Numbered from the stretch's first letter, positions 39,149 to 63,266 are shown. The stretch: 64,000 bases of DNA from Thermoproteota archaeon (GCA_027492205.1 JAOZFN010000008.1:1-64000), one strand, 5' to 3'. Made by a program: numbers and translations. The notes: generated by a model not told the origin, from the sequence alone.

Positions 39149-39378
39149 CTCCCCATCTTAAAGCACCCCTGGGCATCTCTGTCGCTCAACGAGACCAGGG
39201 AAATAAAAATATCGATCTCGGGCCCGTCTCCCCGGGCGTCGCCGAGTCGACCCGGCGACCGCACGCCGGCGGCGCGATCTCTTTAATCGGGACGCAGGGG
39301 GCCTCGGGAGGTCCCCGCGCTAAGGCCCCTCGCGGGTCGTCGGCCCCTCGAGCGGGCGAAGGGCAACTTCGGGTGGTG

Positions 39379-40773
39379 ATGGTCGCCTTGGAGCTGACAG
39401 AACAGATCCCGGCGCAGATCAGGCACCTGGCCAGGGGGGTGAGGGGGCAGGGAGGGCTAATCCTCGTGGCGCTGGGCAACTCTTCGGCAGTCCTGCTGGG
39501 GGCGCTGACGTGGCTCCTGCTCGCGAGGCTCCTGACGGTCGCCGACTATGGGAGAGTCAACTACCTGGCCTCTATCGCCATTTTGGCCTCTGGAGTCGCT
39601 TCCCTGGGAATGCCGGCCACCCTGCAGGCATACCTGCCAAGGGGGGACGAGCACATCTCTTCGGGAGCTGCGCTAACCGCCCTGTCCCTTGGGCTGGCCC
39701 TGGGGATCCCCCTTGCGGCCCTTCACCCCACCCTGCCGCTGATCACGGTGGGTTACGCCCTCTACACGGTAGCCACGAGCGAGAGGCTCGGGAGGAGGGA
39801 CTACGGTGGGTACGCCCTCCTGCAGGTCCTGAGCAGGCTCGGGCTCCTGGCCTGGGTCCTCGCGGCCGTCCCGTCGCTCGGCGCGGATGGGGCGCTCCTG
39901 GGCTTCGCCCTAGTCAACCTCGCCTCCGCCTCCTGGATCCTCAGGGGGGTCGCCAGGCCCCGGGAGGGGCTCGCCTCGGTGAGGTCCCACATAAGGTTCT
40001 CGCTCGCGGCCCTGGCCATGGCCATGACGTCCTCGGCCGCCCTGAGGCTGGACAAGGTGCTGATCGGTTCCCTCTACGGGGAGGAGACCCTTGGGTACTA
40101 CCAGCTCGCCTTCCAGTTCTACGCCGCTATTGCCGTCATTCCGGCCAGTCTGAGGAGCTACCTCCTCCCAGAGAGGTCTTCAGGCCGGGGAACCCGGAGG
40201 GCGGAGCTGATCGGGATTGCCCTCTCGGCGCTCGCGGCCTGCCTCGGGGCTCTCCTCTCGCCGCTGGTGATAAGGTCTCTCTTCCCCGACTTCTATCCCG
40301 AGAGCGCCGCGGCCGCCAGGATCGCCTCCCTCGCGGCCGTTCCGGGGGCCGCCTTCAGCGTCTGGTCGGCCGGGAAGCTGAGTCAGGAGAGGCCCACCCT
40401 GGTCCTGGCGGCCAACCTCCTCTCAATTTCCACCCTCGCGGCCTCCATAGCGGTCCTGGGAAGGTTGGCCGGGATCCCCGGTCTCGCCGCCTCCCTCCTG
40501 GTCTACAGATCCTCCGCCGCGGCCGCCGCGGGCGCGCTCGACAGGCTCGAGTCGCGCGGGGCCCTGCTCCCGCGTGGCCAGCGCGGGAGGGGGATGTCTG
40601 ACCGGGCCGCCTCAGCGGCCGGGGGGAAGTTGGCGGAGGCCGATGCTGGCCGGCAGAAACCGTCGCGCCGTCCGGGGGGGCCAACCCGGTCCCCCTCGGC
40701 GGTCCAGGTATGGGTTGCCGGGGGTGGCCCCCCACCCGGCACTCCCCACAAGGGGCCCACCTCGGTCTCCTAG
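39379..40773 (+). CDS. polysaccharide flippase (Wzx/MATE-like)
   Basis: A 464-residue flippase with about twelve helices: GNSSAVLLGALTWLLLARLLTVADYG and ASLGMPATLQAYLPR at the start, then LRLDKVLIGSLYGEETLGYYQ, split here from the rest. It should move lipid-linked oligosaccharides outward for surface glycan or S-layer glycosylation. The last 70 residues (from about LLPRGQRG) are polar, proline- and glycine-rich and not part of the fold. It is the first gene of the surface region and precedes the S-layer gene. Confidence 0.8.
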   Translation: MVALELTEQIPAQIRHLARGVRGQGGLILVALGNSSAVLLGALTWLLLARLLTVADYGRVNYLASIAILASGVASLGMPATLQAYLPRGDEHISSGAALTALSLGLALGIPLAALHPTLPLITVGYALYTVATSERLGRRDYGGYALLQVLSRLGLLAWVLAAVPSLGADGALLGFALVNLASASWILRGVARPREGLASVRSHIRFSLAALAMAMTSSAALRLDKVLIGSLYGEETLGYYQLAFQFYAAIAVIPASLRSYLLPERSSGRGTRRAELIGIALSALAACLGALLSPLVIRSLFPDFYPESAAAARIASLAAVPGAAFSVWSAGKLSQERPTLVLAANLLSISTLAASIAVLGRLAGIPGLAASLLVYRSSAAAAAGALDRLESRGALLPRGQRGRGMSDRAASAAGGKLAEADAGRQKPSRRPGGPTRSPSAVQVWVAGGGPPPGTPHKGPTSVS

Positions 40774-40889: not shown

Positions 40890-40903
40890 AGGAGGTGAAA
40901 GAG

Positions 40904-43621: not shown

Positions 43622-44803
43622 TCACAGTCCCCTCGCGCCGAGGATCGGGGCGCCCTGCGAGGACCCGACCACCTCGAGGTACACGGACAGCACCATCCCC
43701 GCGATCCTGGACCAGTCGAACTGCCAGGGCGGATCGGCGGTCACCCCACTGTCCAAGAGTCCGAGGGCCTCCCTGATGGCGGCCGATATCGAGCCGGGCT
43801 CGACCGAGTCGATCCTCGCCCAGAGGGGGTACCCCCTCAGGGCGTCTATGGCCCCGCCCACTGGCGTGGCCGCTATGGCCAGCCCGGCGGCCATGGCCTC
43901 CACCAGGGCGAGGCCGAGCCCCTCGGCCCTCGCCGGGTTCACGAAAACGTCGGCGGCCGCGAACAGCTCGTGGACCCTGTCCGCGGGGACCCAGGGGAGG
44001 ACGACGCCCGCCCCCCCGCCCTCGACTATCCTCCTGACCTCCCCCCTCAGGTACCCGTCCCCCGCGATCACGAAGAAGATATCGTCCTTCTCCCTCCTGA
44101 GCCTCGCGGCGGCCAGGGCCAGCTCGAGCGAGCCCTTGACGTCGACCAGTCTACCGGCGTAGAGGACTATCTTCGCCTCCTGCGGGAGGCCGAGCCTCTC
44201 CCTGATCTCCGCCCTCCTCCTTCGGGCCTCTTGGAACTTTGTGACGTCGACGCCGCCCGGTATGACCCTGACGCTCCCCGCGCCGTACCTCCTCACGTAG
44301 TCGGCCACGTGCCCCGATATTGCGATCACGGCGTCGACCCTCCCCAGCAGCCACCTGAGGACCGTCCTGTTGAAGGCCTCCTCCAGGAGGCTCGCCCCGC
44401 CCCCCGGGTGGAGGGCGTACGTCCCGTGGACGGTTAGTACCGTGGGGTAGTCCCCCAGGAGCAGGGCGGAGATCCAGGTGGTGGGGAAGTGGTGGCCGTG
44501 GACGTGCACCACGTCGGGGTCGAAGGACCTGACGGCGCCCACCAGCCTGTCCGGCCTGACGGGGATTCGGAGGCTCCTCAGGGTCTTTAAGACCAGTCCG
44601 GGTGGGGAGACGCAGCGGACCCCCGAGAATGGCGGGCCCTCGGATAGGAGGCCCTCGCTCCGTTGGCCACAACAGCCCACCACTAGCACGTTGCAGTTCC
44701 TCGACAGGGCGCGGGAGAGCCCCCAGACGTGTCTTGCAATCCCTCCCCAATCCGGCGGGTAGAAAGGGGTCACCTGGACGACCCTCAACTCAATCCCCCT
44801 CAC
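43622..44803 (-). CDS. GT4-family glycosyltransferase
   Basis: A 393-residue GT-B enzyme. N-terminal TPFYPPDWGGIARHVWGLSR, central HGTYALHPGGG and IPGGVDVTKF, and C-terminal ARAEGLGLALVEAMAAG with the E-x7-E motif (E294, E302). Retaining transfer from a nucleotide sugar in the cytoplasm, likely in assembly of lipid-linked surface glycan. It starts at GTG 44803; TTG 44788 is possible. Confidence 0.85.
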   Translation of the reverse strand: MRGIELRVVQVTPFYPPDWGGIARHVWGLSRALSRNCNVLVVGCCGQRSEGLLSEGPPFSGVRCVSPPGLVLKTLRSLRIPVRPDRLVGAVRSFDPDVVHVHGHHFPTTWISALLLGDYPTVLTVHGTYALHPGGGASLLEEAFNRTVLRWLLGRVDAVIAISGHVADYVRRYGAGSVRVIPGGVDVTKFQEARRRRAEIRERLGLPQEAKIVLYAGRLVDVKGSLELALAAARLRREKDDIFFVIAGDGYLRGEVRRIVEGGGAGVVLPWVPADRVHELFAAADVFVNPARAEGLGLALVEAMAAGLAIAATPVGGAIDALRGYPLWARIDSVEPGSISAAIREALGLLDSGVTADPPWQFDWSRIAGMVLSVYLEVVGSSQGAPILGARGL

Positions 44804-44828: not shown

Positions 44829-46307
44829 TTATCTCAACCCCAGCCTGGCCTTAATCAACCCCAACAGGAGGGACCTCCTCTCCAGCTTGTCCGGAAGAGA
44901 TGCCCTCCCGCTCCCCTGAGCGTATAGGTCTCTCCCCTCCATGTATGCCGGGGGGGCCAGCCCCAGCATGCCGAGCGCGGTTGGCGTTACGTCCTCGACC
45001 CGGGCGTCCCCGTCAACCTCTAGCCTTTCGGAAGCTATCAAGACACCATAGAGCTCATGACTCCCCCCACAGACCAGGGGACTGGTCAACTTTCCATCGA
45101 GAGTCAGTCCCGGTCGAATCACGAAGTCCGGCTCGATCTCGATGACGAGGTCAGGTCCCAGCCCGACGCGAGGACCTGAGTATAGGTCTCTCGGATCGTG
45201 GATGTCCCTAACTATCTTAAGGCCCTCCCTCTCCCCCTCGGCCTCAAGGGCCCTGGCGATCTTGAGGGCCTCGCCGCTCATGGGGCTCCAGGGACCCCTC
45301 CCCGAGATCGCCACAAACCTGCCGCCTATCCCCATCGTCACTCCATCTCTCCCCTGAGAGCCGAATTCCTCCCTGAAGTGCATCGAGACCCCGAGCCGGG
45401 AGGCGGCCCTGAGCAGCTTGGGCAGGGCGGCCCTCGCCAGGCTGCTCGAATCGAACAGGTATCTGCCCAGCCCCGCCAGCCAGGATCCCAGGCCCCCCCT
45501 GATTCCAGAGTACAGGCCCGAGTGAATCATCCAGTTGAGCAGGAGAAGGGACCGCCGCGAGCCGTAGAACCCGTGATCTGACACCACCAGGAGGTGCTCG
45601 TACTCTACCCACTCCAGGGCCTCCTCGATCATGGACTCCACGGCCTCGTAAGTCATCATCACGTGTGGGCCAGGTTCTCCTGCCATCCAGAAAAGATGGG
45701 ACGCCCTGTCCGACACGGTGAATACCAGCGCGGCCAAGTCCCAGCTCCTTCCATCCAGCGCCCTCCTGAAGACCTCAAGCTTCTGCTTCTCAAGGTTTAC
45801 GGCCTCCTCGATTGCCCTCTCTGGTCTATCTCCGTGAAGCACGAAGGGATCGCCCGGGAGGTCGGGTACGTAGCCCCTTGGGATGATCTTATCCTCCCCC
45901 GGTGGGAAGACTATCCCACTCGAGGTCGGCGCTGGGAGGCCTGACACCAACCTCCCTAGCAGCGGCGTCGGCGGCCACGTCATGGGGACGTTCACTACTA
46001 CGCTCTTCATGCCCAAGTACGAGAGGATCTCCCAGAGCGTGGGGACCCTGAGGCTCAGGCTCGAGACCAGCCCCCCCTTGCGGTCGGAGAACTGATACAC
46101 CCCGTGTCTCCCGGGCCCGGTCCCCGTGAAGATGCTGGACCATGCCGACGCGCTGTTTGGGGGTATCGTGGATCTGAGCCTAGCCAGGGTGCCAGACCTG
46201 GACGCCTCACCCAGCGGCCCATCCGACCTGGAAAGGTAACGCCTAGCGGCCTCGTATTCCATTCCATCTATCCCGACGACTAGGAGCCTAACGTTGGACT
46301 TCCCCAT
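44829..46307 (-). CDS. alkaline-phosphatase-superfamily phosphodiesterase-like protein (first)
   Basis: A 492-residue enzyme of the nucleotide pyrophosphatase/phosphodiesterase (NPP) branch. Metal site VGIDGMEY, nucleophile S52 in PPNSASAWSSIFTG, GRHGVYQF, and metal ligands in VVSDHGFYG. Most NPPs have threonine as nucleophile; serine here is the alkaline-phosphatase choice. No signal peptide, so a cytoplasmic enzyme is likely. Expected to hydrolyse phospho- or sulfo-esters. Divergent from the next phosphodiesterase gene; TTAAATT near 46332-46340 fits a leaderless start at ATG 46307. Confidence 0.75.
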   Translation of the reverse strand: MGKSNVRLLVVGIDGMEYEAARRYLSRSDGPLGEASRSGTLARLRSTIPPNSASAWSSIFTGTGPGRHGVYQFSDRKGGLVSSLSLRVPTLWEILSYLGMKSVVVNVPMTWPPTPLLGRLVSGLPAPTSSGIVFPPGEDKIIPRGYVPDLPGDPFVLHGDRPERAIEEAVNLEKQKLEVFRRALDGRSWDLAALVFTVSDRASHLFWMAGEPGPHVMMTYEAVESMIEEALEWVEYEHLLVVSDHGFYGSRRSLLLLNWMIHSGLYSGIRGGLGSWLAGLGRYLFDSSSLARAALPKLLRAASRLGVSMHFREEFGSQGRDGVTMGIGGRFVAISGRGPWSPMSGEALKIARALEAEGEREGLKIVRDIHDPRDLYSGPRVGLGPDLVIEIEPDFVIRPGLTLDGKLTSPLVCGGSHELYGVLIASERLEVDGDARVEDVTPTALGMLGLAPPAYMEGRDLYAQGSGRASLPDKLERRSLLLGLIKARLGLR

Positions 46308-46451
46308 AGCGAGGAGCTCCCACCCACTCACAATTTAAGCTGCCTCGCCCCTCTGCGCCTCGAGCACGCTCAGCGGGACGGTCAGACGTGCAACGGACGG
46401 GAAAGTTTATCTGGCCTCCGTCAGAAGGCCCACCGAGGAGTCTTGAAGGGA

Positions 46452-47981
46452 ATGAAGGCTCTACTGATCGTGCTGGACGGCCTATCCGTTGAGGTCGTGG
46501 AGAGGGGCCTGCGGGAGGGGAGGCTCCCAACCCTCGAGAGACTGGGGGGGGTTGGGGCGACGGGCATACTTCGCTCCGCCGTGCCCCCGGATACCGCTGC
46601 CGCCATGGCCTCCCTGCTAACCGGGTCCGGCCCCGGGAGGCACGGGGTCTTTTCTCTCCTCATACCAGAGGCCAGGAACGGGCTGCTCAGGGTGAGGCCG
46701 GCCCAATACGCTGACATAAGGGTACCCACCCTGTTTGACTACTCCGCCCGCACTCGAACCTCCATGGCGGCCTTCGGGATTCCCCTCCTCAGCCCGGTCC
46801 CAGAGCCCCCGGGGGGGTTCGCGGTGCCGGGCTTTGCTTCGGCCCCCGGGTCGAAGGCCCGGCCGGCCTGGGTCGACGAGTGGCTTGAGGATGCTGGCTT
46901 TGAGGACGACGTCCCAAGAAGCTTCTACGGCCTTGATCCACACGATCAGGCTCGGATCTTGAGGGAGAGGATGAGGTTGACCGTTGACTTGTTCCTCCAG
47001 CTGGTCGAGGGGCTCAAGTCCCCCCCAAGGATCTCCATCCTCTGGCTTCCGGAGACGGACCGGGCAGGCCACACAATCTGGGATCACCGGGAACTCATGC
47101 TGAAAGTGTACGAAGAAGCGGACAGGGTGGTCTCCAGGCTGGTCGATCACTATGGTCTAGATGAGACCGTCATTGTCGTCACGGGCGATCATGGGTTCAC
47201 CTCCAGACTCTCAGAGTTCTTCCCGAACTATCTCCTCCTAAGACACGGCCTCCTCAAGCTCAGGGGAAAGATCCTCCCTGCCCTGAAGAGGATCACATCT
47301 CTGCTAGCCGAGTGGCTCGTTGAGACCTCAAGGGCGGTTTGGAACCTGGCAATCGGCAAGGGGTTCATATCCGAGAGGGAGAGGGAGAGACTGGCCATAA
47401 GGCTGGCTAGCCGGCTGGTGTTGGACTACCCAGACATCGACCTCTCCAAATCTCTGGCGTTTTCCATCTCAGACCTGGCCCCCTACGGAATGATCTACAC
47501 CCCCCGGGACATCCTAAACCCACCCGTGGGGGAGGATCGTCTGAGGGAGGAGCAGGACCTCCTCTCTAGACTTAAGGAGATAGAGGGGCTCGAGCGCTTC
47601 GTGGACGAGCTGATACCAGGGAGTCGGGTATATGGGACGTCCTGTCCCGGGGCACCGGCTATACTCTTCAAGACCGCCAGGGGTTACAGCCCGGTCGGTA
47701 GGCTGTCTGCCAGCGTGCGAGGCCCCTCGAGGGCGTCATCAGGCGGAATGCACGACATTATCTCCCCCATATTCATTGCGGGGCCGGGAGTCCCTGCCGG
47801 GAGGCTCGACCGCGTCGTGGGGATAGAGGATGTCTTTCCGACCCTGCTATCGCTCGCGGGTCTCCCGCTCTGGAGGGGGCTGCAGGGCAGGCCCGTGCTG
47901 GGTCAGGCCGAGGGGGAGGTAGACCTCGCCCGGGTGGCGGCGAGCAGGGCGATTAGGAGGAGGCTCAGGCCCAGGAGGTGA
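46452..47981 (+). CDS. alkaline-phosphatase-superfamily phosphodiesterase-like protein (second)
   Basis: A 509-residue NPP-type enzyme. Metal site LIVLDGLS, nucleophile T48 in PPDTAAAMASLLTG, then GPGRHGVFSLL and VVTGDHGFTS. Paralogue of the previous gene; the two share GTG-GPGRHGV blocks but are diverged. Its last 135 bp overlap the end of the converging giant membrane gene (47847). A TTG at 46443 is an alternative start. Substrate unknown; position among glycan genes suggests lipid-linked or sugar phosphates. Confidence 0.75.
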   Translation: MKALLIVLDGLSVEVVERGLREGRLPTLERLGGVGATGILRSAVPPDTAAAMASLLTGSGPGRHGVFSLLIPEARNGLLRVRPAQYADIRVPTLFDYSARTRTSMAAFGIPLLSPVPEPPGGFAVPGFASAPGSKARPAWVDEWLEDAGFEDDVPRSFYGLDPHDQARILRERMRLTVDLFLQLVEGLKSPPRISILWLPETDRAGHTIWDHRELMLKVYEEADRVVSRLVDHYGLDETVIVVTGDHGFTSRLSEFFPNYLLLRHGLLKLRGKILPALKRITSLLAEWLVETSRAVWNLAIGKGFISERERERLAIRLASRLVLDYPDIDLSKSLAFSISDLAPYGMIYTPRDILNPPVGEDRLREEQDLLSRLKEIEGLERFVDELIPGSRVYGTSCPGAPAILFKTARGYSPVGRLSASVRGPSRASSGGMHDIISPIFIAGPGVPAGRLDRVVGIEDVFPTLLSLAGLPLWRGLQGRPVLGQAEGEVDLARVAASRAIRRRLRPRR

Positions 47982-50900
47982 CCAGTGTGACGCAAGGCGC
48001 CTAAAAATGGCGAGGTGCACGAGGAAGGCCAGCAGCCCACCAGCAACCTCCGGGGCCCCAGGCTTCGGCTCCTCCCGGCTGGTCAATGGCGGGTCTAACC
48101 GGATGAGGCTGCCCGGAGTGGGCCTCACCTTCCTTAGAATCAGGTACCTGTCGACGACCTCAGGGACTATCTCTACCCCGCCCTCCACGATGACCCTCCT
48201 CTTCACGAGGAGGGAGGCTGTGTACGAGAGGAACTCCAGCCTCCTGGGTTCCTCAAAGACTGTTCTACCCTCCGTCATAACCTCCGGAGTTCTGACGGCC
48301 ATTAGACCCTCCCCCTCGATGCGTATCACAGTATCTCCCAAAGAGAACTCGAGCGTCCTCCCCTCAGGGCTCACCACCCAGATTCGAAGGTTCTTGGCGC
48401 TCGCCGAGAGTTCACTGGCCTGAATACAGACGTAGAGCCCAGATCCACACGATCGACCGGTCTCCCCGCCCAGGCTCAGGTTCAACACGCTGAGGGTCAG
48501 TCTGTCGGCCGCGAGCCCCGCGGCGGAACCCGGCGCCACGGTGAGCCGAATGTCCGCCGCCCTGAGGAAGACCTTCCCGACCGGGAGTAGGACTGCCGAA
48601 CTCGCCGTCAGAGTGGCCGAGTCTGCTCTCAACTCTCCTAAGTAGCTCAGGGTTCGGACGTTTCGCTCGACCTCTCTCTGCGAAGGCTCTGTTGGCGAAA
48701 TCGAGAGAAGCAACCCAAGTATTCCCTCGTCCCAGGACCCCTTGGAGTCCGCTGCGGGGGAGAGCAGCGGCTCCACATTCATCAGGTAAATCCTCCCTCC
48801 CCCCACGTCCATGGCCACCACCAGGGGGACCTCCCCCCCGGTGCCGACGTAGGTCGCCAGTAGCTCCACCCCCTCCCCGGGCCGAGAGCGTGGGACCTCA
48901 ACGGGCGCAGGCAGGGGGACCTCCTCACCGTCAACGCAGACGCTCGTCGCCCTGATCGTGCCTTGAATGGGTTCCAGCATCCGTTCTGAGAAGAACCCTC
49001 GTCCGCCCGATCTATAGACCACCACCCTCCCCCCCGACCTTGCGAAGCTCATCGCCAGGGAAGGGATGGCCCTTTCCCACCCTCCCTCCCCCTCCCCGGT
49101 CGCTGGATCAAACGTCAGAATGAGGGTGTGTGACCTCAGAATGACACCTAGATCGGGAAACAGGGCGGTCGTCAGCCCCCTCGTGAATCTGGCCAGCAGT
49201 CCGAGGAGCCTCAGGGACTCCGGTGAGAGCCCGTCCAAAGGGACCAACGCAACGACCTCCCCGTCTCCCGACACGGGCGAGTACCTGCTCAGGTTGTAGA
49301 GCAGGGCGTTCTCGCTCTCGTAGGCCGGCCTCATGTTCCTCAGCATGCCCTCCACGTAGGTCCCGCCCATCGGCCCAAGGTCCCTCCTCTTGTCGACGTA
49401 CAGGTAGGGGTGGGTGTAGGGCGGGGGCCAGTACATCGCGGCCAGGGTCGCCTCCGGGGTGTAGGCCCTCAGGGTGTCCAGGCTGAAGGATAAGGGCAAC
49501 ACGGACGCGGGGGGGTCGGCGAGCATCAAATCTCTCAGCGATCTGTATGTTACCGTGAGGGGATAGGAGAGGGGGTCCCGGTCGAAGATCAGCCTGAGGT
49601 CCCTGAGGACCTCTATCTCGGCCTCGCTCGGGGCGCTCGATTTGGCCAGCTTCCTCAGACCCGCGGTTCCGGCAAAGGCGGGGACAGCCTCCAGCACAAG
49701 CGTTGAGACCATAAGGGCGGCCAGGACAGCCCTCAACCTACCTCGACGGCCCCCTTCACCCCCCCCGGGGGGTCCGGTCAGGAGCAGCTCTAGTCCGCCT
49801 GCCCACGCAAGTACCGCCAGCAGCTTGATGAGGGGGATCAGCCTCCACTCCCAGAACCTCGTGAAGAAGAACATTACATTTACAAGAGATACGAGTCTGC
49901 CCAGGAGAATGACCCCGACGAGCAGGCCAAGTATCAGCTTGGAGCGGTCATCCCCCCACTCCAGGTGGGCGCTGACGGCCAAGGGGAGGGCCGCGCCAAC
50001 CAAACCCAGCAAGACGGGGTACTGATACCAGGGAACCACTCCAAGCTTGTTTGCCCATCCAGCCCCCTCCCCCGCGGTTGCCCAGAGTATCAGCCCGGAG
50101 ACCTCGAGACCGAACAGGGCGGAGAGCAGCAGGACTGCCCTCTTGCCGCTGGTCACCCCCCTGATGATCGGGGCCCCTAGACCGGGTAGCGCGTAAGAAA
50201 GGGACAGTATACCCAGCATGGCTCCCAAAACGATTATTTCCTGCCAGCTTACCGTGTAGAACGGGAGAGCGGTATCCAACAGGATCTGCGCGACCGCCGA
50301 CATCACTAGACCTGCGGTTATACCGAGCAGGGTTGGCCTGAGGTCTCTCCCCTTCTGGGAGAGGAGGGAATAGGCGGCCAAGGGTCCCGCGACCGCCACA
50401 GCCTCCCCCACGTGGGTGAGGTAGAGACCCGCGACCGCGGCCGCAATCATGGGGGTGAGGGCGCGCCTCAACCTTCTTCCGGAGAGGAGAAGCCAGATGA
50501 GAAAACAGAACAGCATTAGCCCCATGTACCTAGAGTCGTAGACCACCCCAAGCTGGTATACGTTGAAAGGAGTGGCCCTAAACACTGACACGAAGAAATC
50601 CTCTCCCCTGAACGCCACCCTCACCCACTCAAGACCGTCGGTGAGGAGCGAGACGTCTAGGAGGGCCGCGGTGAGCAGCGCCACCCTCTCCGACCGGAGC
50701 AGGGATCTTGCGGTGGAGTACAATGTAATGGGGGCTAGCGCGCTGACCGCAGAGAGGGAGAGCTTGACAATCTCGTCTCTTCCACCCGAGAACGCAATGA
50801 GGGCTCCCAGGTGGGCCCTGAGGAACGGGGGATACGTGGTCAGGAAGGGGAGTGGATTCCCGTAGATCTGGGGAGACCGCCAAAGAATCACGGAAGCCAC

Positions 50901-51389
50901 GTAGTGCCTTGTCATATCGAGGGAGGGGAGATAGGCAAGTTTCGGGTAGAGCCAGAGCGTCAAAGCGATGTGATAGGCGGAGAGGGCCACCAGTCCCGCG
51001 ACCTCCTCAGGGCCCAGGTTGGAGTTGGGCTGGGGCCGCGATCTCGCTCGGCGGGAGGCGAACTTCACAATTCCAACGATACCCAGAGCCAGTTCACCCA
51101 CCAGTAGGGTAACCCTTCTCGACCCCGGACTCAGCGGGAGGGTCGTGAGGGTGGCCCAGCCCATAATCAGGTAGCTAACCACGTACGATGCGGAGACGAT
51201 CTCTGGGGGAGTCAACGAAGTTGTAAGGCCGATCAGGTCCAGCAAAACGAGTCCCGGCAGCAGCCAGAGTAGCGGCGCCGAGACCAGAACCCCCACGTCT
51301 CCTAGGCCGTCGGCCCCCGCCAGCAAGAGCGACGTGGCGGCGACCAAGGCGAGGCTTCCCACCGCCCCCGCTCGTCTCAAGACAGTCAC
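47847..51389 (-). CDS. giant GT-C-like membrane protein with ectodomain (1180 residues)
   Basis: An 1180-residue protein not matching a named family. Residues 1-570 hold about 13 helices with GT-C-like marks: an acidic loop after helices 1-5 (YLPSLDMTRHYVASVILWR, about 150-168) and the helix WEWRLIPLIKLL. Residues 571-1110 are a large exported part with a Rossmann-like, ThuA/glutaminase-type stretch (SFARSGGRVVVYRSGG). A final helix (about 1112-1130) anchors it. It could be a glycosyltransferase or polymerase for S-layer glycans. Residues about 636-712 are coded by the 232-bp segment identical to 53407-53638. Paralogue of the 1403-residue protein beside it. Confidence 0.65.
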   Translation of the reverse strand: MTVLRRAGAVGSLALVAATSLLLAGADGLGDVGVLVSAPLLWLLPGLVLLDLIGLTTSLTPPEIVSASYVVSYLIMGWATLTTLPLSPGSRRVTLLVGELALGIVGIVKFASRRARSRPQPNSNLGPEEVAGLVALSAYHIALTLWLYPKLAYLPSLDMTRHYVASVILWRSPQIYGNPLPFLTTYPPFLRAHLGALIAFSGGRDEIVKLSLSAVSALAPITLYSTARSLLRSERVALLTAALLDVSLLTDGLEWVRVAFRGEDFFVSVFRATPFNVYQLGVVYDSRYMGLMLFCFLIWLLLSGRRLRRALTPMIAAAVAGLYLTHVGEAVAVAGPLAAYSLLSQKGRDLRPTLLGITAGLVMSAVAQILLDTALPFYTVSWQEIIVLGAMLGILSLSYALPGLGAPIIRGVTSGKRAVLLLSALFGLEVSGLILWATAGEGAGWANKLGVVPWYQYPVLLGLVGAALPLAVSAHLEWGDDRSKLILGLLVGVILLGRLVSLVNVMFFFTRFWEWRLIPLIKLLAVLAWAGGLELLLTGPPGGGEGGRRGRLRAVLAALMVSTLVLEAVPAFAGTAGLRKLAKSSAPSEAEIEVLRDLRLIFDRDPLSYPLTVTYRSLRDLMLADPPASVLPLSFSLDTLRAYTPEATLAAMYWPPPYTHPYLYVDKRRDLGPMGGTYVEGMLRNMRPAYESENALLYNLSRYSPVSGDGEVVALVPLDGLSPESLRLLGLLARFTRGLTTALFPDLGVILRSHTLILTFDPATGEGEGGWERAIPSLAMSFARSGGRVVVYRSGGRGFFSERMLEPIQGTIRATSVCVDGEEVPLPAPVEVPRSRPGEGVELLATYVGTGGEVPLVVAMDVGGGRIYLMNVEPLLSPAADSKGSWDEGILGLLLSISPTEPSQREVERNVRTLSYLGELRADSATLTASSAVLLPVGKVFLRAADIRLTVAPGSAAGLAADRLTLSVLNLSLGGETGRSCGSGLYVCIQASELSASAKNLRIWVVSPEGRTLEFSLGDTVIRIEGEGLMAVRTPEVMTEGRTVFEEPRRLEFLSYTASLLVKRRVIVEGGVEIVPEVVDRYLILRKVRPTPGSLIRLDPPLTSREEPKPGAPEVAGGLLAFLVHLAIFRRLASHWSPPGPEPPPNRPARRHPGEVYLPLGLTQHGPALQPPPERETRER
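49253..49484. repeat. 232-bp perfect direct repeat, copy 1
   Basis: Base-identical to 53407-53638 over all 232 bp, as read from the sequence, with divergence immediately on each side. It lies in the 1180-residue protein gene (residues about 636-712). The paralogues are clearly diverged elsewhere, so this is a conversion or recombination tract rather than selection alone. Confidence 0.9.
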
Positions 51390-51397
51390 CTCACGTT

Positions 51398-54300
51398 CTA
51401 TAGCGTCGTTTGGTCTTCGTTCAGCTCAGACCGATGACTTCCCCCGCCGTTCAGAACCCTCAGTGCGAGCACCGCGATCAGAATTGGTGGGGTAATGGTC
51501 AGGGCCGCCAGAAGCGTGGAGGTCCGGATTAGGCCGGTGGGCCCCTCCAGGGGGGGGTCTAAAAACCATTCACCGGAGAAGCTCACCTCCGAGATTAAGA
51601 GATAGTTTCTGTCCACCAGCCCTATCGCCAGGCTGGCCTCCCCCTCCAGGATCACCCGCCTGTCCTTTAGGGTCGATGCATGGTAGGGGACGAATTCCAG
51701 CCGCTGCGGTCCATAAATGGTAAGAGTCCCGTTTAGCTCAAGGGTGGGCCGCCTGAACAGGGCTGCAACGCTCCCGTTGATCGGTGTCACTTCAACCGCG
51801 TAGCTCCCGGGGGGGAGGGTGAGCAGTCTGCTCTCAGCGGCGCTGCCGTTTCTCGCGACGAGGACGTTGAGGGGGCCCCTGGACCACGCGCCCAGGACCA
51901 GGGGCGAGCTTAGGGTCACCGGATAGTACAGGCCGGATAGCACCAGCCCTGAAGGAGCTGACCATCCCTCCCAGAGGGGCCCCCTCCCGACCTCGACGGA
52001 ACCCGTCCTGAGGAGGCCTTCGTCGGCGGAGAGCCCAACCTGAGAGCAGTTATCTACTGACAGGACCTCCTCGCCGTCTGCCCTGAGGTCCACGACTCTC
52101 ACAGAAAGAAGGCCGGAAGATCCGCTGGAGAGGTTCTCAGGCAACCCGAAGAGGACGGCAGATTTGGCCTCGACCCTCATGTCCGCCCCGGAGAGTCCCT
52201 TGACGTAGTATCCCTCCTCCACGTTCTTGTCAACCTTCTGGACACCGAGTTCCTCCCCTATCAGCTCCATTGGAGCTAGGATTGAGTAGAGCCTGTCGAG
52301 AACATCCCTATTGACTCCTCCAATCTCTCGAACGTGCCTGAAAATTGGGAAGGCGTTTACCAGGTAGACCTCCCCCCCCTTCACGCTCAACCTGAGTATG
52401 TAAGGGGATATTGATCCCTCGGGAGTCGTGTAATTCGCCAGAACGCTGACCTCTCCGGTGGCCCTTGCCTCGCTCACCTCCACGGGGGTGGGAGGGAGGG
52501 TGCCTGAGACGAGGCCCGAGACGGACGTTGAGTTTAATAATTTCGCCGAAATTCTCATCAAAAGTTCAGAGAAGTAATTATATCCATTCAAATTGTAGAC
52601 AACTACGGACCTCCCAGACTCGGCTATGGAGAGCAGGTTCTCCCCAGTGAGATAGGGCCCCCAATCCCCCCACGCAATCCGCTGGTAGTACTCGGCCTCG
52701 AAGGTCTTGAGGACCGGGGAGTGGGCCCTCCCTCTGGCGACGCCCACCCTCCCCGGTGGGACGGGCACCTCCCCTTGGAAGACCTCCTCTCCGTTGATCG
52801 AAAGTGAGACCACGTCGGGCCTGACCCTGACTTGCATTGTGAGTTGGCCTCCTGGCTCCCAGTCCCCGAGTTTTCGATATCTCCTCGGTATCGTGACGGC
52901 TTCGGTCCAGCTCTCACCGTTGACAATCCTCAGGGCCCCGTAGATCTCTCCGGCGGGGGTGAAGAAGAGTTCGAGGAGGCTGAAGTTCCCCCTGGACTCA
53001 TAGGAGAAGATCACTCCGATGTAGCCTACGCTGTTCAGGGGTATTCCCCTGGGGAGGGAGAGATCCAGGGTCAAGTTGATGTTGTCCGTCTGCACCATGG
53101 GGGCCAGCCTGAAGGAGAGATATGCCTCCTCGGCCTCCGTTCCGGGCAGGTCTAGACCCTCCAGAGGCACCCTCTCCACCCAGGAGGGGGTCCAGTCCGA
53201 GACATCATCTCGGGGTGCGTGCAGGGTCAAGAACGTGCCGTTGTCGAACGGGGGGTCGTAGGGGACGACGATGACATCCTTCTGCAGGGCAGCCGGGTCC
53301 ATGTCCAGGAATGTCGTTACTGAGTAGCCCAGGCGGGCGAAGGCAAGGAGGCAAAGAGAAGACGCGTCGTTTGGGGAGATCACCCGGTTCGACGCCACGA
53401 GAAACGCGACCTCCCCGTCTCCCGACACGGGCGAGTACCTGCTCAGGTTGTAGAGCAGGGCGTTCTCGCTCTCGTAGGCCGGCCTCATGTTCCTCAGCAT
53501 GCCCTCCACGTAGGTCCCGCCCATCGGCCCAAGGTCCCTCCTCTTGTCGACGTACAGGTAGGGGTGGGTGTAGGGCGGGGGCCAGTACATCGCGGCCAGG
53601 GTCGCCTCCGGGGTGTAGGCCCTCAGGGTGTCCAGGCTCAAGGCCAGAGGCACTATCTCTAGTGGGGGAGCAGCCAGCGTCAGGCGCGTCAGCGTGTCGG
53701 TCGTGATCGCCAGGGGATATGCCTCCGGGTCCCCCTCGAACACCTCTCTGGCGGCCGAGAGATCCGCCAGCTGAGACGCGTCTGGCGCCCTTATGTGTGC
53801 CAGCCTGACCAGGCCCGAGCTCCCTACAAGCGTGGGTCCCCCTTCATACAGCACGATGGAAGCGATCGCGATGACCGTCAATGACCTCCTGAGGATTGCG
53901 CGTCTCTGGGAGGGCCCCCCAGCCGCCACAGCCTCCCCTACACGCGTCAGCGTCAGGCCGGCAAGTAATGAGAGGGGGAGCTTTGCCAACCTAACTAGCC
54001 TCCACTCCCAGTACCTGATTAGCCCGTACCTGGCAGAGATCTCGGATATCGAGCTACCGGCGATCAAGCAGAGGCCAGCGAAGGTTACCAGGGTCAGCAG
54101 ACCTCTCATCTCGTCGTCATCCGTGGAGCCCAGCAGCTTGAGGGAGAAGATGCTCAGTATGCCGGAGAGCCCGAACGTGGCAGCGTAGCCGTACCATGGA
54201 ACCGACCCCTTCGCAATCCTTATGCCGCCCCACCATCCGGAGACGTCAATCCATACGACGAGCCCGAGAAAGTAGACGTACAGCGCCGCCGCCAGCGCGG

Positions 54301-55609
54301 CGCGGGCGGGCCAGTCCCCCCCGATGATTGTGCGTCTCAGCCTACCTGCCCAGCCGGGTCTCCCCAGTCCAACCCCAGTTCTCAACATGAACTCCGACGA
54401 AACCAGGAAGAGCGCGGGCAGGAGGCACGCCGCCATCTCCTGAGCACCGATCGAGTACACTGGCAGAATCCTGTCCAGCGCAATGAAGGCAGCTCCCGCC
54501 GACGCCAGGGCGGCCGCAGACCCAAGGGTCACGGGTCGCCCGTGCCATCTCCTCCCCGATAGGTTTAACGCTGCCACCGCAACCGACAGGAGAGCGCCCT
54601 CCACCACGTGAGTGAGCTGGTTGGCGAGGACGAGGAGGAATATGATCAGCGCACCCCGACCCGCGGAAAGGTCACGTCTCCTGGGGAGGCTGAAGATGAC
54701 CCAGAGAGCGGCGAGGGTTAGGAGAATGGCGGCGAACTTAGCGTCGTAGACAAGGCCGGGCAGGTAGGCACCCCCCGATAGCAGCTCGAACGGAAGCTTC
54801 GAGAGCCCACCGGCCACCAGCCTCCTAAGCCAGGGGAACCCTGTTGAGTAGATGGACAGATCTCCAAGGGCGGCGGCAGCTGCGGGGAACCTCCGCCATC
54901 TCCGGCCAGCAAGAGCCCCTGCCGTTGCGTAGAAGGCCAGGGGGAGCACCCAGCTCACCGAGGAAGTGGCTGACATAACGACGGCGTCAGGCGTCCGCGA
55001 AAGGTATATGAACGCTCCCAAGTGCGCCCTGAGGAACGGGGGGTAAGAAAAGAATATCTCCACTGGCTTCCCGTAAAGGAGAGGGGTTCTCCAGAGTATG
55101 ATGGCCCCCGCGTAGTGCCTCACCATGTCGGTGTCCGGGAGGTACGCTATCTCTGGATACCCCACAACCGTGAAGGCCGCGCGTGTTCCGATCAGCGCCA
55201 GCAAGACGATCCAGTCGTTCGGGTGATAGAGGCCCAACCCTGGAGAGACCGCTTCGACCCTCCTTGAGATCGCCAGGCCAGCTACCCCCTCGGCCGCTGT
55301 GGACAACGTCAGGGCGACCGCCTTGGATCGAACGTCGAGCGTCAGCGTGGCGAGGGAGAGCAACCCCACGAGAGAGTAGCTGAGGGGAACTGAGATCGCA
55401 AGCTGCTCCAGAAGGCTCATTCCCTTCGACGCTCCAATGATCCTCAAAAGCACGAGCCCTGGGAGCAGCCAGCAGAGAAGGTAGGAGAGTCCGAGCCGGG
55501 CGAGTCCCAGGGGAATTCCGGCAGCTTCATCGATAAACAGGAGGAGCGATACGAGAACTAGGGCGAGTTCTGGAGACTTTTTCCCCAGGTCCGAGGGAGG
55601 ATCCCCCAT
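51398..55609 (-). CDS. giant GT-C-like membrane protein with ectodomain (1403 residues)
   Basis: A 1403-residue paralogue of the previous protein, on the same strand 8 bp upstream. N-terminal core of about 13 helices to about residue 590, with YLPDTDMVRHYAGAIILWR and WEWRLVRLAKLPLSL. The ectodomain is interrupted at about 850-973 by a lectin-like, concanavalin/LamG-type segment (WTEAVTIPRRYRKLGDW, LSINGEEVFQGEV) that the 1180-residue protein lacks. The ThuA-like stretch resumes at RSVVVYNLNGYNYFSELLM. Final helix about 1360-1390. ATG 55609 follows CTATTTATTAC by about 30 nt. Function predicted only as glycan synthesis or recognition. Contains the second copy of the 232-bp repeat. Confidence 0.65.
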   Translation of the reverse strand: MGDPPSDLGKKSPELALVLVSLLLFIDEAAGIPLGLARLGLSYLLCWLLPGLVLLRIIGASKGMSLLEQLAISVPLSYSLVGLLSLATLTLDVRSKAVALTLSTAAEGVAGLAISRRVEAVSPGLGLYHPNDWIVLLALIGTRAAFTVVGYPEIAYLPDTDMVRHYAGAIILWRTPLLYGKPVEIFFSYPPFLRAHLGAFIYLSRTPDAVVMSATSSVSWVLPLAFYATAGALAGRRWRRFPAAAAALGDLSIYSTGFPWLRRLVAGGLSKLPFELLSGGAYLPGLVYDAKFAAILLTLAALWVIFSLPRRRDLSAGRGALIIFLLVLANQLTHVVEGALLSVAVAALNLSGRRWHGRPVTLGSAAALASAGAAFIALDRILPVYSIGAQEMAACLLPALFLVSSEFMLRTGVGLGRPGWAGRLRRTIIGGDWPARAALAAALYVYFLGLVVWIDVSGWWGGIRIAKGSVPWYGYAATFGLSGILSIFSLKLLGSTDDDEMRGLLTLVTFAGLCLIAGSSISEISARYGLIRYWEWRLVRLAKLPLSLLAGLTLTRVGEAVAAGGPSQRRAILRRSLTVIAIASIVLYEGGPTLVGSSGLVRLAHIRAPDASQLADLSAAREVFEGDPEAYPLAITTDTLTRLTLAAPPLEIVPLALSLDTLRAYTPEATLAAMYWPPPYTHPYLYVDKRRDLGPMGGTYVEGMLRNMRPAYESENALLYNLSRYSPVSGDGEVAFLVASNRVISPNDASSLCLLAFARLGYSVTTFLDMDPAALQKDVIVVPYDPPFDNGTFLTLHAPRDDVSDWTPSWVERVPLEGLDLPGTEAEEAYLSFRLAPMVQTDNINLTLDLSLPRGIPLNSVGYIGVIFSYESRGNFSLLELFFTPAGEIYGALRIVNGESWTEAVTIPRRYRKLGDWEPGGQLTMQVRVRPDVVSLSINGEEVFQGEVPVPPGRVGVARGRAHSPVLKTFEAEYYQRIAWGDWGPYLTGENLLSIAESGRSVVVYNLNGYNYFSELLMRISAKLLNSTSVSGLVSGTLPPTPVEVSEARATGEVSVLANYTTPEGSISPYILRLSVKGGEVYLVNAFPIFRHVREIGGVNRDVLDRLYSILAPMELIGEELGVQKVDKNVEEGYYVKGLSGADMRVEAKSAVLFGLPENLSSGSSGLLSVRVVDLRADGEEVLSVDNCSQVGLSADEGLLRTGSVEVGRGPLWEGWSAPSGLVLSGLYYPVTLSSPLVLGAWSRGPLNVLVARNGSAAESRLLTLPPGSYAVEVTPINGSVAALFRRPTLELNGTLTIYGPQRLEFVPYHASTLKDRRVILEGEASLAIGLVDRNYLLISEVSFSGEWFLDPPLEGPTGLIRTSTLLAALTITPPILIAVLALRVLNGGGSHRSELNEDQTTL
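53407..53638. repeat. 232-bp perfect direct repeat, copy 2
   Basis: Second copy, offset by exactly 4154 bp from the first, in the 1403-residue gene (residues about 658-734). The protein segment includes MYWPPPYTHPYLYVDKRRD and LLYNLSRYSPVSGDGEV. Confidence 0.9.
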
Positions 55610-55694: not shown

Positions 55695-56639
55695 ATGTCG
55701 GAAGGGAAGGGGTCGTCGCGGGAGGGGGCTAAGATCGTAGCGTGTATTCCGGCCTATAACGAGGAGGAAACCATCGGAGAGGTGGTTTCATGTGCGAGAA
55801 GGTACGTGGATGTTGTGCTGGTCTGCGACGACGGCTCGACCGACAGGACCGCTGAAAGGGCCGAGATGGCCGGAGCCATCGTCCTAAGGCACCCCAGAAA
55901 CAGGGGGTACGGGGCGGCCCTCAGGACCCTCCTCACGGCAGCTCTGGAATACGACCCGGATGTCGTCGTGACGCTGGACGCGGATGGTCAACACGACCCA
56001 GCCGACATCCCCTCGATCGCGGCCCCGATAATAGAGGGGCGGGCAGACGTTGTGATAGGTTCTCGCTTTTTATCCAGCGATTCAAGAAAAGAGGTTCCAA
56101 GATATAGGGAGTTAGGCATCAGAGTCATAACTAAAGTGGCCAGCGGGATCTCCGGGCTGGACATCAGCGACTCCCAGAGCGGGTTTAGGGCCTTTAGTAA
56201 GAGGGCCGTCAGATCCATTAAAATAATGGACGATGGGATGGGGGCCACGCTTGAGGTTATCCAACAAGCTGCCGCCCTCGGCCTCCGCGTTGAGGAAGTT
56301 CCGGTGGTGATACGCTACAGGGGATTGGAGACGTCTACCTACAATCCAATCAGGCAAGGGCTCGGCCTACTGCTAAAGCTCGCGGATTTGATTGGATGGA
56401 GGAGGCCGCTTGTCTCCTTTGGAGTGCCGGCGGCGGCCTCTCTGATAGTCTCTATGGTATTCACCGTTAAGCTGCTTAGAATATTCAACTTGACCAGGTA
56501 CTTCAGCGTTCCGCTGGCATTACTCTCCACTGCCTTCGGGATAGTAAGTGCGATTCTGTTCTCCACCGGGGTCACTATATATGCCGTTAAGAAGGCCGTC
56601 AGGGAGGAGATGAAGATGAGGTTAGCATCCCATCGCTAG
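55695..56639 (+). CDS. GT2-family glycosyltransferase with C-terminal membrane helices
   Basis: A 314-residue GT-A enzyme of the dolichol-phosphate mannose/glucose synthase group: IPAYNEEETIGEVV, DDGS (45-48), LDADGQHDP (94-102) and DSQSGFRAFSK. Two helices at about 240-265 and 275-297 anchor it to the membrane. It likely makes a polyprenyl-phosphate sugar, the donor used by GT-C enzymes outside the membrane, consistent with the giant membrane proteins beside it. The second half has noticeably lower GC and A/T-ending codons than its neighbours. Confidence 0.85.
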   Translation: MSEGKGSSREGAKIVACIPAYNEEETIGEVVSCARRYVDVVLVCDDGSTDRTAERAEMAGAIVLRHPRNRGYGAALRTLLTAALEYDPDVVVTLDADGQHDPADIPSIAAPIIEGRADVVIGSRFLSSDSRKEVPRYRELGIRVITKVASGISGLDISDSQSGFRAFSKRAVRSIKIMDDGMGATLEVIQQAAALGLRVEEVPVVIRYRGLETSTYNPIRQGLGLLLKLADLIGWRRPLVSFGVPAAASLIVSMVFTVKLLRIFNLTRYFSVPLALLSTAFGIVSAILFSTGVTIYAVKKAVREEMKMRLASHR

Positions 56640-60265: not shown

Positions 60266-60826
60266 TCAGGCGATTAGACCCATACCCCGCAGGGCCCCCA
60301 GGACGACCTCCGCCTCCTGCTCGGGAGTCATCGTCTCCGAGTCCACCACAACCTCCGGGCTCTCGGGCTCTTCATACGCGTCCTGCACCCCGGTCATGTT
60401 CCCCAGCTCTCCCCTGATGGCCCTCCTATACAGACCCTTCGGGTCCCTCCTCATGGCCGTCTCAAGCGAGCACCTCACGTAGACCTCGACGAACCTCAGC
60501 CCCTCCACCTCGACTATCTCCCTGACCTCCCTCCTGACACTCCTGTACGGCGAGACGAACGAGGCCACTACCGCCACTCCGTTTCTGGCCAGGAGCTTTG
60601 AGACGTAGGCCACCCTCCTGAGGTGTCGCTCCCTGTCCTCCCTGCTGAATCCGGCCTCCGGGCTGAGCCACCTCCTGACCTCGTCGCCGTCTAGCACCTC
60701 GACGCGCCAGCCCATCTCCCTCAGCTTCCTGGCCAGAACCCCCGCGAGCGTGGTCTTCCCTGCCGCCGGGAGACCCGTCAGCCAGACCACGAAACCCTCC
60801 CTAGGGGATCCGGGGCCCTCCGCCAC
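60266..60826 (-). CDS. cysC: adenylylsulfate kinase (APS kinase)
   Basis: A 186-residue APS kinase: P-loop GLPAAGKTT (18-26), DGDEVRRWLSPEAGFSREDR, ASFVSPYRSVRREVRE and YVRCSLETAMRRDPKGLY. It phosphorylates APS to PAPS, the sulfate donor. The sequence-specific motifs separate it from shikimate-type kinases. A gene for ATP sulfurylase lies two genes upstream in the operon (63276). GTG start at 60826, 15 bp from the preceding stop. Confidence 0.9.
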   Translation of the reverse strand: MAEGPGSPREGFVVWLTGLPAAGKTTLAGVLARKLREMGWRVEVLDGDEVRRWLSPEAGFSREDRERHLRRVAYVSKLLARNGVAVVASFVSPYRSVRREVREIVEVEGLRFVEVYVRCSLETAMRRDPKGLYRRAIRGELGNMTGVQDAYEEPESPEVVVDSETMTPEQEAEVVLGALRGMGLIA

Positions 60827-60841: not shown

Positions 60842-62239
60842 TCAGCTCACGTCGACGAGGGGTTCCCCCCTCATTCCTCCGGGAATTTCCATCCCCACCA
60901 GCGACAGGATCGTGGGCGCCACGTCGTAGATCGTGGCTCCGAGCTCCCTGGGCTCCACCCTGTCCTCCGGATCGCGTATCAGATAGATCCCCTCCCAGTC
61001 GTGGACCGCGTCGTCGGGGCCGGTGTCGTTCTCCGGGAGGAACCACTCTCCGTGGCCCATCGTGCCGGCCGCGCGCCAGCTCAGGTCCCCGAAGTAGACC
61101 ATGAGGTCCGGGGCGTCCCCCCTCACCTCAGGGTAGATCTCGGCCGGCCTGTGGGCCTCCACGCCGAGGCTCCCGCCCCCGGGAACCCGGACCCTCCTCA
61201 GGTCGTCCACCAGCTGGGCCAGGGTGGACTCGAAGTCCTCCGGGCTCACCCTACCCTGGGGCTCCCTCCCCCTGAGGTTCACGAAGATCCTGGAGTAGTA
61301 GCCGCCCCACCCCCAGGCCACCGTCCTCTCCCAGTTCACCTTGACCTTCGCTAGTCCCGTCTGCTCCCTGGGCCTCTCCTCCAGGGCCAGGTAGCCGTTG
61401 TCCGCCAGCCACTCGTTGATCGCGAAGGCGCCGGTCATAGCCTTTGCCCCGTGGTCCGAGACGACGAGTATTGAGGCGTCCTTGGCGGCCCGAGCGAGCC
61501 TCCCTATTCCCTCGTCCAGGAGGCGGTAGTAGCGCTCGGCCACGTCGGCGAACTCGCTGTCCGGGACGTGCCTCGGGTGATCTGGGTCGAAGAACTTCCA
61601 GAAGGCGTGGTGGAGCCTGTCCAGTCCGATCTCGACGTACCACATCAGGTCCCACCTCTTCGCCCTCGCCAGGTGCTCGGCGACCCGGAGGTGCTGCCTG
61701 GTCATCTCGAAGAGCCTCTCCACCAGGGGGCCCCTGTCCTCGACCCTGAACTCCACGTCGTGTGTGAAGGTTCCCCCCGCGACCCTCTCGACCTCCAGCC
61801 TGAGCCACGGCGGGTGGGTGTAGTTCTTGGCCGTCGAGGGTGTGTGGAAGTCGCTGATCACCCACCCCTGAACCTTGAGGGGAGGGTAGGAGGGAGGGAA
61901 GGCTATCAGCAGGGCCTTCTTCCCCTCCCCGGCGGTGCGATCCCACACCGCCGGCCTCGTCAGGTTCCTGGAGGTCACTAGGTAGTACTCCCTGTACTCG
62001 CCGGGCCTCCTGTGCCTGAAGCCGTACATCCCCAGCTCCCCCGGAGTGAGGCCCGTGGCCATCACGGCCCAGGCGGGTACGGTTATGGGCGGGTGGCAGC
62101 TCCTCAGGGGGCCGTACCTGGCCCCGTCCATCAGCTCTGAGAGGTTCGGCATTTCGGGCAGGAACCTCTCGAACGCCAGCGACGGCGGCGCCGAGTCCAG
62201 CCCTATGACCATGACCCTCTCTCCAGCCACCTCAATCAC
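60842..62239 (-). CDS. alkaline-phosphatase-superfamily phosphodiesterase-like protein (third)
   Basis: A 465-residue NPP-type enzyme. VIGLDSAPPSLAFERFLPEMPN at the start, split here from the nucleophile region PITVPAWAVMATG (T53), then GLDRLHHAFW, VVSDHGAK and a C-terminal ligand region ending VAPTILSLVGMEIPGGMRGE. Its gene overlaps the DHH gene by 8 bp and is followed by cysC, so it is in a PAPS operon. It could be a phosphodiesterase or sulfo-transfer enzyme acting on sulfated nucleotides or glycans; not determinable. Confidence 0.78.
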   Translation of the reverse strand: MIEVAGERVMVIGLDSAPPSLAFERFLPEMPNLSELMDGARYGPLRSCHPPITVPAWAVMATGLTPGELGMYGFRHRRPGEYREYYLVTSRNLTRPAVWDRTAGEGKKALLIAFPPSYPPLKVQGWVISDFHTPSTAKNYTHPPWLRLEVERVAGGTFTHDVEFRVEDRGPLVERLFEMTRQHLRVAEHLARAKRWDLMWYVEIGLDRLHHAFWKFFDPDHPRHVPDSEFADVAERYYRLLDEGIGRLARAAKDASILVVSDHGAKAMTGAFAINEWLADNGYLALEERPREQTGLAKVKVNWERTVAWGWGGYYSRIFVNLRGREPQGRVSPEDFESTLAQLVDDLRRVRVPGGGSLGVEAHRPAEIYPEVRGDAPDLMVYFGDLSWRAAGTMGHGEWFLPENDTGPDDAVHDWEGIYLIRDPEDRVEPRELGATIYDVAPTILSLVGMEIPGGMRGEPLVDVS

Positions 62240-63266
62240 TCCCCCCTCCTTCGAGGACGGCGGACCTCAGCCAGTCGAGGGCGCGGCGGGCGAACTCTCT
62301 CGCCTCCGGCTCGGGCAGGATGACGCCGACGGACTCCCGCTTCCCGCCCGCATTGTACCCGCTAGACCTCGCCATCTCGGCCAGGGACGTGAGGTCCAGG
62401 TCGAGCCCGTGGACCCTGGAGTATACCTGGGCGTACCCCCTCCTCCAGCGAGAGTTGATCGCGAGCACCGCGACCCGATCCCTGGACCAGGCGAACCTCC
62501 GCCCCACGGTGGAGATGAGGAGGTGGGGGGACTCGAACTCCACGTAGACGACGCTGCCGAAGTCTTCCACCCTGGCCTCTCTCAAGACCCTCTCGACCTC
62601 GGCCTCGGCGGACCTGTGCTTTATTATCCACTCCCCCATGCTCAGGAGCGATCTCGGATCCCCGTACCCCCTGCCGAGCGCGAAGACCGCGTCCCTGACG
62701 CCCTCCCTGTCCCCGACCCTGTAGTTCGCGTCGACGAGCTCGGCCAGCCTCTCGAGCTCCTCAACCCCCATTCCCAGCGAATCCAGCACTCTCAGCACCT
62801 CCCCGTAGACGGGGTGAGATCGGAGCGTGGGGCCCAGGTCGCCCGCGATGCCCAGGATCGATCGAAGGTCGGGCCGAGCTCCCATCAGGCGCGTGAGGTG
62901 CCAGCTCGCGGAGGGCTGACCCACGTCGACCAGCGAGATCCAGGAGGCCGGGAGGCGCCCCCTCGGCCTGACGTGGTGATCCACCAGCACCACCCTGCCG
63001 GCCCCGACCGCGGAGGCGGCCCTCTCCACGGACTCGACGGGCAGCGCCACGTCGAGCACCATCAGCGTGTCGAACGTCCCCAGGTCTCGCATCTCGTCGG
63101 CCGCCCGAGAGTCTAGCCAGTAGAACCCCAGCGGCGGCACGTAGAGCTCGGCGTGGTCTCCGAGCCAGTCGAGGATCAGGCTCGCGCTGGCGACGCCGTC
63201 GGCGTCCCAGTGGTGGAGGACGAGGGTGGCTCCGAGTTCTTCCGGATTCGGCAGCCTCGACTCCAT
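62232..63266 (-). CDS. DHH-family phosphoesterase
   Basis: A 344-residue DHH/DHHA1 protein: HWDADG (19-24), LMVLDVALP, VDHHVRP (96-101), and a C-terminal SSGYNAGGKRESVGV resembling the DHHA1 glycine motif. The family includes RecJ-like exonucleases and NrnA-type pAp phosphatases. Its place in a sat-DHH-NPP-cysC operon favours removal of pAp, the by-product of PAPS-dependent sulfation, but this is inference. GG-rich N-terminus is short. Confidence 0.75.
   Translation of the reverse strand: MESRLPNPEELGATLVLHHWDADGVASASLILDWLGDHAELYVPPLGFYWLDSRAADEMRDLGTFDTLMVLDVALPVESVERAASAVGAGRVVLVDHHVRPRGRLPASWISLVDVGQPSASWHLTRLMGARPDLRSILGIAGDLGPTLRSHPVYGEVLRVLDSLGMGVEELERLAELVDANYRVGDREGVRDAVFALGRGYGDPRSLLSMGEWIIKHRSAEAEVERVLREARVEDFGSVVYVEFESPHLLISTVGRRFAWSRDRVAVLAINSRWRRGYAQVYSRVHGLDLDLTSLAEMARSSGYNAGGKRESVGVILPEPEAREFARRALDWLRSAVLEGGGSD

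Follow-up and report, generated by a model that had tools for sequence, protein, structure and literature searches.

The 64,000-nucleotide window analyzed here, positions 1 to 64,000 of contig JAOZFN010000008.1 of a Thermoproteota archaeon (GCA_027492205.1), carries two very large membrane protein genes in tandem, which we call P0001 and P0002 and, together with their homologs, the giants. The genome is a 17-contig draft of 1.94 Mb and 96% completeness, and belongs to a phylum that we call Korarchaeota-like. An earlier note on this DNA had described genes for proteins of 1180 (P0001) and 1403 (P0002) residues, and open reading frames (ORFs) of exactly these lengths are indeed found on the same strand, separated by 8 bp. 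The two proteins are paralogs, with 40% identity over 766 amino acids in BLASTP (E = 6e-121). Hydropathy analysis agrees with the layout given in the note: numerous helices lie within residues 1-600, and an extended soluble region separates them from one final hydrophobic segment. The motifs named in the note are also in place: LPSLDM begins at residue 154 of P0001 and LPDTDM at residue 157 of P0002, while WEWRL begins at 513 and 534, respectively. Throughout the text, coordinates in the window are counted from its first nucleotide, the numbers of the residues D161, H165, H334, E337, E535 and R537 refer to P0002, and G and L numbers designate genomes and homolog loci.

The membrane core of P0002 was modeled with AlphaFold2 using 23 homologs (predicted local distance difference test, pLDDT, 80.1; predicted template-modeling score, pTM, 0.88), and the model was compared to the PDB with Foldseek. 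The best eight matches are all enzymes of the glycosyltransferase C (GT-C) fold, mostly oligosaccharyltransferases (OSTs), with probabilities of 0.98-1.00 and E-values from 4e-4 to 0.11. At the top stands chain I, presumably STT3A, of the OST-containing translocon structures 9n9j (E = 4e-4) and 8b6l; the other six are Archaeoglobus fulgidus AglB (3waj, 3wak), yeast OST (7oci_F, 8age_A), PglB (6gxc_A) and DPY19 (7zlg_A, probability 0.98), followed next by the mycobacterial AftD (6w98, probability 0.97). Among the 50 listed matches, the rows outside GT-C reach a probability of at most 0.25, and the GT-C enzymes AftA and PimE fall below 0.5. The earlier note had suspected a GT-C-like core and had named structure prediction and a fold search as the check; both find the GT-C arrangement. 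P0001 and P0002 are thus probably members of an unnamed GT-C family of the GT-C_A type, within a superfamily that is itself well known.

At E ≤ 1, neither protein has a match in Pfam or NCBIfam, and scans of the homologs return chance-level or sub-threshold matches, except for Laminin_G_3 in a lectin insert of one homolog; the earlier note likewise knew of no named family with this order. When 394 archaeal genomes were searched with a profile, members appeared in 17 that belong to the same family as the window genome, with two strong and three weak matches elsewhere; the two strong ones belong to other phyla, and when those two phyla were searched, 3 of 228 genomes in one and 16 of 398 in the other gave matches, some of them weak. 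Most Korarchaeum-like genomes carry homologs, which are sparse in the other archaeal phyla. In a tree built from 35 cores, a Korarchaeum clade stands apart from a second clade that comprises the window pair, a protein of a sister genus, a protein consisting of the core only and the members of other phyla; long branches make the fine placement uncertain.

Residue conservation was counted over 37 aligned members, 34 of which have a residue in the D161 and H165 columns. The loop aspartate D161, within the acidic loop that the note had singled out, is kept in all 34 and H165 in 31; H334 (36 of 37) and E337 (34 of 37) are nearly invariant, E535 is present in every member, and R537 is arginine in 36 and lysine in one. 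The fold match would place the D161 loop outside the membrane. The core-only member, a protein of 619 residues in G016, ends after the membrane core and retains the motif residues, which suggests that the core is the functional unit of the family. At locus L122 (G477), two members (3163-7623 and 12983-15499), one of them short (838 residues), flank another large membrane protein of 839 residues; at L112 (G791), two ORFs with the same starting residues (1208-2683 and 10848-11531) flank a giant gene whose frame stops early, at 1117 residues.

The ectodomain appears to be composite. A DUF4350-like part is suggested by one homolog matching PF14258 at 1.4e-4, below the cut-off, and by an hhalign probability of 47%; a profile search of PDB sequences with this region gave chance-level matches only, and a literature search for the domain-of-unknown-function (DUF) families together with archaeal GT-C enzymes gave no results. 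The P0002 ectodomain model, of low confidence (pLDDT 55.7), returns galectin and laminin-G folds in Foldseek, and because of this low confidence the lectin matches serve as supporting evidence only. In other homologs the inserts match Laminin_G_3 (one, at 1.5e-22) and CBM_11 (two, at 0.0014 and 0.2, both below the cut-off). Sequence and model together suggest a DUF4350-like part carrying exchangeable inserts that resemble lectins or carbohydrate-binding modules (CBMs), a plan that recalls AftD and EmbC. The ectodomain of the giant at L115 (G932, 5486-10090) contains several near-identical tandem copies of a segment with SIENDLESKDLISIFGGNGRPMNLQYND.

Within the ectodomain, a DNA stretch of 232 bp missed by the earlier note is identical between the two genes. 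Outside this tract the genes share 46% DNA identity and 34% protein identity, and identical amino acids are encoded by the same codon in 37% of cases, as against always in two alignment windows lying wholly inside it. The genome holds only two full copies. The simplest reading of the comparison is a recent gene conversion between P0001 and P0002. As the genome is a draft of 17 contigs, the identity might instead have arisen in assembly, but this is less likely and on the whole improbable: the two copies are in homologous register, directly upstream the genes continue at about 50% identity, and the tract coincides with the part of the ectodomain that a conservation profile shows to be best conserved among distant members.

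Around the window pair lie several genes linked to glycan synthesis (Table 1). Of the neighbors listed in the earlier note, the glycosyltransferase family 2 (GT2) enzyme does lie next to P0002 and the flippase is present, although four genes and about 7 kb separate it from the nearer giant; the S-layer gene has a PF05124 match below the cut-off and is weakly supported. Recurrence of neighbors was read from a phmmer table over the homolog loci. A GT2 of the same kind adjoins giants in the window and in G017, and flippases occur near giants in G001, G237, G209, G932 and the window. In seven genomes from five genera (G001, G237, G950, G791, G910, G932, G789), a related glycosyltransferase of family 4 (GT4) is encoded one or two genes away from a giant; the window genome has no clear counterpart, its best match, 2.6e-20, being at the general GT4 level. 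Genes for ATP sulfurylase, a phosphatase-superfamily protein and adenosine 5'-phosphosulfate (APS) kinase recur near giants in G001, G016 and, in another phylum, G715. Elsewhere in the window, 33050-34486 encodes a predicted protein opening with an (ALI)n-type repeated hydrophobic stretch, and 58809-59408, close to the sulfate activation operon, a DUF3782 protein of the PD-(D/E)XK nuclease superfamily.

Table 1. Features of the window at and around the two giant genes.
Feature	Position	Strand	Basis or remark
Polysaccharide flippase (Wzx type)	39373..40773	+	PF13440, PF01943 (Polysacc_synt)
Putative S-layer gene	40844-43438		PF05124, E = 0.036, below cut-off
GT4 glycosyltransferase	43622..44803	-	
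Alkaline-phosphatase-superfamily protein	44829..46331	-	PF01663
Alkaline-phosphatase-superfamily protein, convergent	46443..47981	+	PF01663; 3' end overlaps P0001 by 135 bp
P0001, giant GT-C protein 1 (probable)	47847..51389	-	ORF, GTG start; plan as P0002 without lectin-like insert
P0001 C-terminal hydrophobic anchor, residues 1111-1129	48003..48059	-	Hydropathy
P0001 copy of identical tract	49253..49484	-	DNA comparison
P0001 membrane core, residues 1-576	49662..51389	-	Alignment to P0002 core
P0001 DxxxH motif (D158...H162)	50904..50918	-	Alignment
P0002, giant GT-C protein 2 (probable)	51398..55609	-	ORF, ATG start; core, ectodomain with lectin-like insert, C-terminal anchor
P0002 C-terminal hydrophobic anchor, residues 1360-1378	51476..51532	-	Hydropathy; helix 784-812 of ectodomain model
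P0002-specific insert, residues ~792-990, probably galectin/LamG-like jelly-roll	52640..53236	-	Alignments, Foldseek of low-confidence model; absent from P0001
P0002 copy of identical tract, residues ~658-735	53407..53638	-	Most conserved ectodomain segment
P0002 membrane core, residues 1-598	53816..55609	-	GT-C fold in AlphaFold2 model; Foldseek
P0002 ExR motif (E535, R537) within WEWRL	53999..54007	-	Conservation
P0002 HxxE motif (H334, E337)	54599..54610	-	Conservation
P0002 DxxxH motif (D161...H165), presumed first extracytoplasmic loop; candidate catalytic Asp	55115..55129	-	Conservation; AglB-like D-x3-H spacing
GT2, polyprenyl/dolichyl-phosphate-sugar synthase-like, likely donor maker	55695..56639	+	Best NCBIfam models PpgS, AglJ, below cut-off
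APS kinase, PAPS synthesis	60266..60826	-	PF01583, 3.6e-57
Alkaline-phosphatase-superfamily protein of PAPS operon	60842..62239	-	PF01663
DHH-family protein, possible 3'-phosphoadenosine 5'-phosphate (pAp) phosphatase	62232..63266	-	PF01368, 27.1 bits, cut-off 28.1
ATP sulfurylase	63276..63989	-	PF01747, 5.8e-94; runs past window end in contig C7

The synthesis of 3'-phosphoadenosine 5'-phosphosulfate (PAPS) near the giants suggests sulfation. A search with PF13469 finds no sulfotransferase in the window genome, an absence that is unproven, as the sister genome's gene also escapes this search. That sister genome (G001) carries at locus L038 a sulfotransferase-like gene and a D-glucuronyl C5-epimerase gene (PF06662, 1.2e-52) at 10146-11162 and 11227-12156, a pair flanked by the giant on one side and the ATP sulfurylase operon on the other. 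Of the 29 genomes of the window's phylum, 19 encode PF06662 proteins, but none is found in the window genome. Glycoproteins of Halobacterium bear sulfated, iduronate-containing glycans (PMC11980604, PMC13308652), and the published archaeal C5-epimerase Agl32 (PMC13308652) was considered as a parallel.

With a probability of roughly 0.6, we propose that the giants constitute a new GT-C family that would act outside the membrane, transferring a lipid-linked sugar to a surface glycan. The predicted fold matches enzymes that attach sugars outside the cell, which makes the giants probable surface-sugar transferases, and the gene neighborhood and the lectin-like inserts are the basis for assigning them to a surface glycan; the new type of surface glycan synthase or transferase that the earlier note had held plausible is in keeping with the GT-C fold, the conserved acidic residues and the lack of a named family. 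The adjacent GT2, suggestive of a lipid-linked donor, would probably load the sugar onto polyprenyl or dolichyl phosphate in the cytoplasm, and the flippase would turn lipid-linked sugars outward. Each giant could then transfer the sugar onto the glycan at an active site centered on D161, within the first extracytoplasmic loop; H165, H334, E337, E535 and R537 are further candidate residues, and the ectodomain, by analogy with the CBMs of EmbC and AftD, would hold the acceptor. The two paralogs probably differ in the sugar that they add or in the position at which they act. The fold, the conserved residues, the family, the neighborhood and the identical tract are computational results; in this scheme we infer the donor, the acceptor, the direction of transfer, the assembly of the conserved residues into a single pocket and the division of labor. 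A bolder version, possible though doubtful as a whole, is that this new family, scattered thinly among several phyla of archaea, acts outside the cell to build a surface polysaccharide bearing sulfate, that lectin-like inserts swapped between members set the choice of acceptor, and that gene conversion keeps one ectodomain segment identical in the diverged tandem copies because both must bind the same acceptor.

As the nearest folds are catalytic subunits of OSTs, the giants might alternatively form a second OST-like system beside AglB, in which an entire oligosaccharide would pass en bloc from its lipid carrier to surface proteins. STT3, AglB and PglB (GT66, PF02516) likewise combine a multi-helix GT-C core with a large C-terminal extracytoplasmic part, and the D-x3-H loop motif of the giants has the same spacing as DDPLLH of korarchaeal AglB. 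An hhalign comparison of the giant core with korarchaeal AglB yields a short loop match only, which puts D161 on the AglB motif (TADDPLLH versus TYDPILH in one giant). Asp47, the corresponding loop residue in the AglB of A. fulgidus, is a ligand of the catalytic metal ion (PMC8342417). However, WWD of the AglB motif WWDYG is present in none of 23 giants as compared to all 16 korarchaeal AglBs, the core alignment has no conserved column for the second DXD of OSTs or for TIXE (a TIXE-like string in 7 of the 23 is not conserved), and the lectin-like inserts point to a glycan acceptor. PF02516 is absent among the matches of the 23 members at E ≤ 10, and the giants differ from AglB further in about four extra N-terminal helices ahead of the helix preceding D161 in the AlphaFold2 model, in their C-terminal anchor and in the lectin-like inserts. 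STT3/AglB is moreover encoded separately in 27 of the 29 genomes of the phylum, including all 17 near-complete ones. We consider an OST-like role unlikely. That a giant replaces AglB was rejected, because an AglB is encoded in the window genome as well.

A polymerase or ligase of a Wzx-type pathway, analogous to Wzy or WaaL, would join flipped repeat units or attach the finished chain to its anchor, and both the recurring flippases and an ectodomain that could hold a growing chain are compatible with it. The fold, however, matches OST, DPY19 and AftD, with no entry named Wzy or WaaL among the 50 listed, and we regard such a role as improbable. It is far less probable that the giants are non-enzymatic or transport-type proteins resembling GT-C enzymes by helix packing only: transporters do appear as weak helix-bundle matches in the low-probability rows, but the eight strongest matches are all GT-C, and polar D, H, E, E and R residues are near-invariant across 37 divergent members. 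Several observations weigh against a sugar transferase of a new GT-C family as well. The Foldseek TM-scores, normalized to query length, are moderate (0.39-0.47) with a large root-mean-square deviation, so that the likeness holds at the superfamily level; a profile search of PDB sequences with the core finds no match; the hhalign match to AglB has a probability of 3%, not significant alone, with a flippase control scoring lower; the missing second DXD column counts here too; and several genomes (e.g. G007) encode their Korarchaeum-clade giants away from glycan clusters.

The proposed transferase family has parallels among known systems. DPY19, a C-mannosyltransferase sharing the GT-C fold, uses a dolichyl-phosphate sugar as donor and a protein as acceptor, and is not known to have a large lectin-bearing ectodomain. 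The mycobacterial arabinosyltransferases AftD and EmbA/B/C combine, like the giants, a GT-C core with a large ectodomain, and EmbC and AftD hold the acceptor glycan by CBMs of this ectodomain (PMC3044687, PMC11127046); the giants differ in being archaeal, in a putative DUF4350-like part and in the lack of sequence similarity in the search with the core. In bacteria the plan of a lipid-phosphate-sugar synthase, a MATE flippase and a GT-C enzyme with a CBM is established (PMC11127046), and the window resembles GT136 (ORF12 of Citrobacter youngae) and the three-component Gtr systems in combining a lipid-phosphate-sugar synthase-like enzyme, a flippase and a probable GT-C enzyme, with a CBM on the GT-C enzyme of GT136 (PMC11127046). 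The family would extend GT-C enzymes with glycan-binding ectodomains beyond bacteria.

To our knowledge, almost no transferases acting outside the membrane are known from Korarchaeota and related archaea apart from AglB. The giants offer specific targets in their candidate catalytic residues, the natural core-only member and the recurring neighbors (GT4, the lipid-phosphate-sugar synthase-like GT2 and PAPS synthesis), and the identical tract can serve as a natural experiment that asks what portion of the ectodomain must be common to two paralogs.

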